Source: Aquabacterium commune
GTDB taxonomy: Bacteria > Pseudomonadota > Gammaproteobacteria > Burkholderiales > Burkholderiaceae_C
Assembly: GCF_004362855.1 (NCBI RefSeq)
Contig: NZ_SNXW01000006.1
Span: forward strand, 124,001 to 188,000
Direction: 5' to 3'
Length of the DNA stretch: 64,000 nucleotides
This document shows, piece by piece, positions 42,685 through 44,499 of the stretch. Numbering within the stretch: the stretch's first letter is position 1; each line of letters starts with the position of its first letter. The notes beneath the pieces were generated by a model. The model was not told where the DNA came from and did no database searches. It saw only the letters and a list, made by a program, of their open reading frames with translations. The position numbers were made by a program, and so were the translations under genes.

Positions 42685-42760
42685 GCGGGATTAGCTCAGT
42701 TGGTAGAGCGATACCTTGCCAAGGTATAGGTCGAGAGTTCGAGTCTCTTATCCCGCTCCA
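42685..42760 (+). tRNA. tRNA-Gly (anticodon GCC), copy 1
   Basis: 76 bases with encoded CCA. Acceptor GCGGGAT / ATCCCGC, D loop AGCTCAGTTGGTAGAGC, anticodon loop TTGCCAA, T loop TTCGAGT. Identical to the copy at 43250. Confidence 0.97.
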
Positions 42761-43249: not shown

Positions 43250-43325
43250 GCGGGATTAGCTCAGTTGGTAGAGCGATACCTTGCCAAGGTATAGGTCGAG
43301 AGTTCGAGTCTCTTATCCCGCTCCA
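43250..43325 (+). tRNA. tRNA-Gly (anticodon GCC), copy 2
   Basis: Identical over its 76 bases to the gene at 42685. It is followed by its own terminator and then tRNA-Cys, all on the plus strand. Confidence 0.97.
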
Positions 43326-43587: not shown

Positions 43588-44499
43588 TCAGGGCAGGGCG
43601 GATGCCACCGCTTCCAGGCCCAGCCAGGCCAGGGCCACGCGCTGCAGGTGCTGCGGGTCGGCGCTGCTCCACAAGCGGGTCTCGCCCGATGCCGATGCCG
43701 ATGCCGATGCCGATGCCGATGCGAGCGCAGTGTGGGGCGTGCCCGGGTGCCTTGCTGACACCCGCTGCGTGTGCTGCGCCACGGCCTGCGCTGTGTCCAC
43801 GATGTGCACGTGGGGCCCCAGTTCTGCCTGGATCAGCGGCGTCACGAAGGGGTAGTGGGTGCATCCCAGCACCACCGTGTCCACCTGCGCTTCGCGCAAG
43901 GGGGCGCAAAAGCGTCCGACCATGTCCCGCAGCGCGGGTGTGTCCAGCACGCCGGCCTCGATCTCGCGTGCCAGGCCCGGGCAGGCTTGCAGCACCAGGT
44001 GAGCGCCCTGGCCATGCTGCTCCACCAAGCGTCGGAATTTGAGGCTGCTCAGCGTGCCCGGCGTGGCCAGCACGCCGACCCGCTTGGATGCCGACAGGGC
44101 GACGGCCGGTTTGACGCCAGGCTCCACACCGATCACGGGCAGGTCGCCGCAACGCAGGCGCAGCCTGTGGATGGCCGCGGCCGTGGCCGTGTTGCAGGCC
44201 ACGACGATGGCGTCTGCGCTCTGGTGGACGAGGAAGTCGCTGATGTGCTCGGACCGCGCCTGGATGAAGGCGTCGTCGCGCTCGCCGTAAGGCGCATGGC
44301 CGGAGTCGGCCACGTAAAGCAGGGCGGCGGAAGGCATCTGTGCGCGCAAGGCACGCAACACGGACAGCCCGCCGAGACCGGAGTCGAACACACCGATGCG
44401 CAGGCCTTCTCCCGTGGTGCCGGTCGTGGCTGTGGCGCCCCCCGGGAGGGATGCCAGGGCGCTGGTGGGATCGGTTTCGAAGGCGGCGGGCATGCGCAA
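43588..44499 (-). CDS. murI: Glutamate racemase (MurI)
   Basis: 303 residues. The racemase fold has GVFDSGLGGLSV at its start, the catalytic cysteine pair C102 (VACNTATA) and C212 (GCTHYPF), and YVADSGHAPYG. It interconverts L- and D-glutamate for peptidoglycan. The N-terminus has about 30 extra Ala/Thr/Gly-rich residues before the fold. Near the C-terminus, residues 259-270 are a pure Ser-Ala repeat encoded by six copies of a hexanucleotide (see separate entry), placed in a surface-like segment between the last helices. Divergent from etfBA. Confidence 0.95.
   Translation of the reverse strand: MRMPAAFETDPTSALASLPGGATATTGTTGEGLRIGVFDSGLGGLSVLRALRAQMPSAALLYVADSGHAPYGERDDAFIQARSEHISDFLVHQSADAIVVACNTATAAAIHRLRLRCGDLPVIGVEPGVKPAVALSASKRVGVLATPGTLSSLKFRRLVEQHGQGAHLVLQACPGLAREIEAGVLDTPALRDMVGRFCAPLREAQVDTVVLGCTHYPFVTPLIQAELGPHVHIVDTAQAVAQHTQRVSARHPGTPHTALASASASASASASGETRLWSSADPQHLQRVALAWLGLEAVASALP
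43687..43722. repeat. Hexanucleotide tandem repeat (CGATGC)6 inside murI
   Basis: Six exact head-to-tail copies of CGATGC. On the murI strand they read GCATCG and encode alternating Ala-Ser. As the unit is 6 bases, copy-number change keeps the frame and changes loop length by two residues. Confidence 0.97.

Follow-up and report, generated by a model that had tools for sequence, protein, structure and literature searches.

A perfect in-frame hexanucleotide array in murI of Aquabacterium commune, probably an ordinary coding microsatellite

The murI gene and its hexanucleotide array

We analyzed a 64,000-nucleotide stretch of the A. commune genome (the window; contig NZ_SNXW01000006.1, positions 124,001 to 188,000), in which the minus-strand gene murI contains a short, perfect tandem array within the segment coding for a C-terminal loop. 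The features of the locus, in window positions, are the following:

43588..44499, minus strand: murI, predicted glutamate racemase of 303 amino acids counted from a TTG start (TIGR00067, Pfam Asp_Glu_race, Foldseek, Cys102 and Cys213)
43675..43752, minus strand: loop near the MurI C-terminus, approximately residues 250–275, which contains the array (low pLDDT; varies in length and sequence among relatives)
43687..43722, minus strand: (GCATCG)6 array coding for (Ala-Ser)6, residues 260–271 (unit count, Tandem Repeats Finder, shuffles)

MurI supplies D-glutamate for peptidoglycan, and murI is essential in E. coli. The reading frame is open throughout 43588–44499, with an ATG two codons downstream of the TTG being an equally possible start. 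The initial annotation had named the gene a glutamate racemase, and matches to profiles, to sequences and to a predicted fold all agree with this assignment. Its product scored 185.5 bits against the equivalog model TIGR00067, which is above the cut-off of 146.65, and also matches Pfam Asp_Glu_race, while four other NCBIfam models that match MurI all fall under their cut-offs (for example, 170.1 of 328 for NF002035 and 121.4 of 408 for NF002034, both models also being named glutamate racemase). All 23 solved-structure matches listed in a search by sequence are glutamate racemases. A Foldseek search with the predicted fold gave a best E value of 3.5e-23, to solved glutamate racemases, and the first 48 among the 50 rows listed are glutamate racemases, which identifies the predicted fold as that of a racemase. 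Cys102 and Cys213, which we take to be the catalytic cysteine pair of glutamate racemase, are invariant in an alignment of 83 sequences. Overall, the predicted protein is like E. coli MurI (structure 2jfn, solved with UDP-MurNAc-Ala) and the TIGR00067 family in sequence, predicted fold and invariant cysteines, but it differs from known glutamate racemase MurI in that its C-terminal loop carries an Ala-Ser run. According to an excerpt of PMC12844806, UDP-MurNAc-L-Ala activates the E. coli enzyme.

The array consists of six CGATGC units, all perfect, at 43687–43722, exactly where the initial annotation had placed them, and is preceded by one further matching base. Tandem Repeats Finder reported it at 43686–43722 (period 6, 6.2 copies, 100% match) with a score of 74, the highest among its 28 rows for the window; with the extra base included, the copy number is 6.17. 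Three consecutive CGATGC units occur at four overlapping places in the window, every one of them inside this array, and were found 0 times in 100 dinucleotide shuffles. As a perfect tandem array, beyond chance, of a unit of 1–6 bases, it is a microsatellite. On the minus strand it reads (GCA TCG)6, which encodes the twelve alternating residues of (Ala-Ser)6 at positions 260–271 counting from the TTG and 258–269 counting from the ATG; a range of 259–270 had been given, which is off by one whichever start is used. The array is in frame and, as had been proposed, a change by one unit would leave MurI with one Ala-Ser more or fewer and no frameshift, as judged from the sequence. That slippage is active at the array is plausible. 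Repeats had also been described as otherwise rare, which holds for perfect short units: across the window, our scan (period 1–12, at least 3 copies and at least 18 bases) found four perfect arrays in total, with the three others being hexamers of only 3.0–3.2 copies.

A hairpin as the driver of the array was ruled out, with both strands folding no better than shuffles. Of 200 shuffles per strand, those that fold at least equally well number 198 and 194 for the array itself and 178 and 198 for its 91-base surroundings.

The loop that holds the array in MurI and its relatives

In an AlphaFold2 model of MurI (mean pLDDT, 89.4), the loop is placed after a helix at 237–249 and before a strand at 274–278, where it joins the conserved racemase core to the last strand and helix. 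Mean pLDDT is 67 in the block 251–260 and 57 in the block 261–270, compared with 94–99 across blocks 31–250 and 95–98 beyond residue 270. The first 30 residues are likewise poorly modelled (pLDDT 38–58), and a helix is drawn at 256–263 with low confidence. The stretch of MurI encoded by the array is, according to this model, a poorly ordered and flexible loop.

The loop also varies widely within the genus. Among 30 genus sequences including our own, one of which was mis-parsed, the loops of 29 are 22–40 residues long (34 in our own), with sequences that are unlike one another and have no evident common composition. The closest relative, G036 (83% identity in MurI), has a 40-residue, Pro-rich loop that lacks a repeat. 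The initial annotation had further expected length variants of MurI to differ in kinetics or regulation, an expectation left unsupported by an array that lies in a poorly ordered loop, variable among relatives.

We then compared murI across 110 loci, made up of the 30 best matches from the genus together with the 80 top-ranking among 544 confirmed matches. Among the 42 genus genomes, the murI matches of six further genomes fall outside this set and six genomes gave no murI match. A perfect hexamer array of at least three units was present in 1 of 99 distinct murI ORFs from these loci, namely our own, and in none of the other 98; at least three consecutive Ala-Ser likewise occurred at 1 of the 110 loci, again our own. 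Within this set, recurrent repeats in the murI loops of relatives are ruled out by their absence from all 98 other distinct ORFs. No second genome of the same species is found among the 42 genus genomes (best other MurI, 83%), and the comparison of lengths is one with other species, the array being absent from every other murI read. Among the papers listed in literature searches on glutamate racemase and tandem repeats, none was seen to describe a murI repeat of this kind.

Hexamer arrays elsewhere in the genome, genus and family

The GCATCG unit is found in at least four copies in 6 of the 42 genus genomes, whereas the unit spelled backwards, a control that leaves dinucleotide content unpreserved, reaches this number in 2 of 42. 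In the five of these six genomes other than our own, the arrays lie on contigs different from that of murI. At a threshold of at least five copies, GCATCG arrays were found in 22 of 299 family genomes, representing 18 of 141 genera, whereas the backwards control gave 5 of 299 (counted from the control columns). Some single family genomes have several GCATCG array sites (for example, G326 and G134). In another genus of the family, a long interrupted GCATCG array (L172:1501-1686) has long Asp-Ala and Ala-Ser frames open on opposite strands.

These arrays are found in different kinds of protein. In the congener G007, PBP2 (MrdA) has (GCATCG)5 in its C-terminal tail (L117:1501-1530), where it reads Ala-Ser, and in G026, (CGATGC)5 lies in a heavy-metal P-type ATPase (L120:1501-1530), where it reads Pro-Met. 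The ATPase host rules out that arrays are confined to cell-wall genes. At the array sites of G003, G017 and G020, no family match was obtained in the one, one and three open frames tested, respectively, and across 12 family loci, with our own among them, several frames are open through the arrays.

Another perfect array of six hexamer units (TGGTGC on the plus strand; L149:13800-13835, contig C3) is present in a 400-kb sample of the A. commune genome. This array reads Ala-Pro and precedes the RodZ C-terminal domain in a RodZ-like gene, which has the Pfam RodZ C-terminal domain and a helix-turn-helix and matches NCBIfam RodZ models below their cut-offs. Together, the arrays outside murI in the genus and family and the one in the RodZ-like gene indicate that such arrays are not peculiar to murI: hexamer arrays are sparse yet recurrent in these genomes. 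That murI and the RodZ-like gene are both cell-wall genes is a point against neutrality, which does not specially predict this coincidence.

We also compared repeat periods at equal run lengths, using perfect repeats that have 12 consecutive matches. Periods that are a multiple of three made up 18 of 24 perfect repeats in the 400 kb of our own genome; in G036, for which 320 kb were analyzed, they made up 16 of 19. In the 400-kb sample, period 12 (7 repeats) is commoner than period 6 (3) and period 9 (3), so the bias is toward multiples of three and not toward six, and period six as a speciality of the genome is ruled out. The excess of multiples of three is consistent with a reading-frame filter, but the rhythm of codons in coding sequence may add to it, or produce it even with no slippage.

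Origin of the array, alternatives and a nearby pair of tRNA genes

Codon usage points to how the array arose. In six chosen ORFs of the window, GCA represents 11 of 348 Ala codons (about 3%), and TCG accounts for 70 of the 169 that encode Ser. The rest of murI, with the array set aside, has GCA at 8 of 44 Ala codons and TCG at 1 of 17 Ser codons. The probability that a given (Ala-Ser)6 would be written as (GCA TCG)6 is ~5e-12 by the usage of the six ORFs and 1.5e-12 by that of murI, while the fairer figure, the probability of six units agreeing on any codon pair, is ~5e-4 and 7e-4, respectively. That all six units agree at synonymous sites even though they use GCA, a rare Ala codon, indicates that copying of DNA made the array and not selection of residues, with duplication or slippage being the most likely route. 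We infer that the copying was recent enough that no unit has since changed. In a DNA alignment, the TCG GG that flanks the array is common to our own murI and that of G036, which suggests that the last TCG of the array is probably an ancestral Ser codon and the starting point of the expansion.

We therefore interpret the array, with a probability of roughly 0.88, as a coding microsatellite in which GCATCG was multiplied by slippage or tandem duplication in a tolerant loop, with a result that is neither lethal nor visibly useful. GCATCG, present once at the loop's 3' edge in murI, would have been the starting point, and slipped-strand mispairing or a short tandem duplication at replication would have brought it to six copies. 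The resulting (Ala-Ser)6 insertion would be neither lethal nor, as far as visible, useful, and would be tolerated because the unit is two codons and the loop accepts many lengths and sequences. The array most likely has no measurable effect, as a loop expansion that is neutral or close to it. It is a real observation, and its most likely explanation is an ordinary one, a harmless stutter of the DNA.

In-frame dipeptide changes at repeats do occur in Cupriavidus metallidurans, which we take to be a related bacterium, as illustrated by a PadR-type regulator. In laboratory strains of this species, a tandem-repeat insertion added two residues to that regulator, and a 12-base deletion upstream of murI appears in the same excerpt (PMC13192273); in-frame duplications are described in an unrelated enzyme as well (excerpt of PMC12593533). 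As far as the excerpted review of bacterial coding microsatellites goes (PMC4700210), the murI array is of the same kind, a perfect short-unit coding array, and nothing essential differs.

A contingency locus, in which gain and loss of units tunes MurI activity or the D-glutamate supply between cells of a population, is a very unlikely explanation for the array. Six perfect in-frame units in murI, without which E. coli cannot live, would suit such a role, as would the other arrays in the RodZ-like gene of the same genome and in PBP2 of a congener. A precedent with a phenotype comes from mutL of Salmonella Typhimurium, likewise an in-frame hexamer repeat in a housekeeping gene with dipeptide gain or loss possible by slipped-strand mispairing, where a 6-base (GCTGGC) tandem repeat toggles mismatch repair (excerpt of PMC2955026). 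In that study, the allele that is one unit short is defective and confers a mutator phenotype, two-way conversion was seen in some strains, and no conversion could be detected among more than ten thousand colonies of non-mutator strains (PMC2955026). In contrast, the murI array has six units, which lie in a variable loop. A contingency of the mutL type would need a dipeptide-sensitive site, and a poorly ordered loop that is widely different among relatives is unlike a site where one dipeptide matters. The absence of the array from the 98 other distinct murI ORFs and the occurrence of arrays in unrelated proteins, such as the heavy-metal P-type ATPase, also argue against it, and nothing found in this analysis points to regulation, to phase variation or to any function of the murI array. 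That hexamer arrays in flexible linkers of MurI, the RodZ-like protein and the congener PBP2 act as length-tunable spacers, with which populations adjust wall synthesis without a frameshift, we consider scarcely credible.

Selection of the Ala-Ser run as a useful flexible linker, with the DNA repeat as a by-product, would fit the small residues, which suit a loop, and the loop of the closest relative, which is also long. It is nevertheless highly improbable, given that the identical units and their rare Ala codon indicate DNA copying and that the loops of relatives have no evident common composition; selection on loop length after the expansion could still have acted. The copy number could also be wrong through an artefact of assembly or sequencing, considering that the source assembly is a 39-contig draft. 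However, the frame stays open, the sequence past the array agrees with homologues, and the array covers only 37 bases, which common short reads span, making such an error barely conceivable. As a probable coding microsatellite, the murI array is a minor example of in-frame DNA repeats that fill tolerated protein loops. If its copy number varies, it might be of use as a marker for strain typing, and it would matter more only if the number of units changed MurI activity.

Beside murI, the window contains two same-strand tRNA-Gly (GCC) genes, at 42685–42760 and 43250–43325, which are alike in the part compared (from 42700). A GGGAAGCC...GGCTTCCC stem that has a T run comes after each of them. A tRNA-Leu (TAA) gene lies on the opposite strand between the two tRNA-Gly genes, and a tRNA-Cys gene comes afterwards. 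The paired tRNA-Gly (GCC) region looks like a local duplication.
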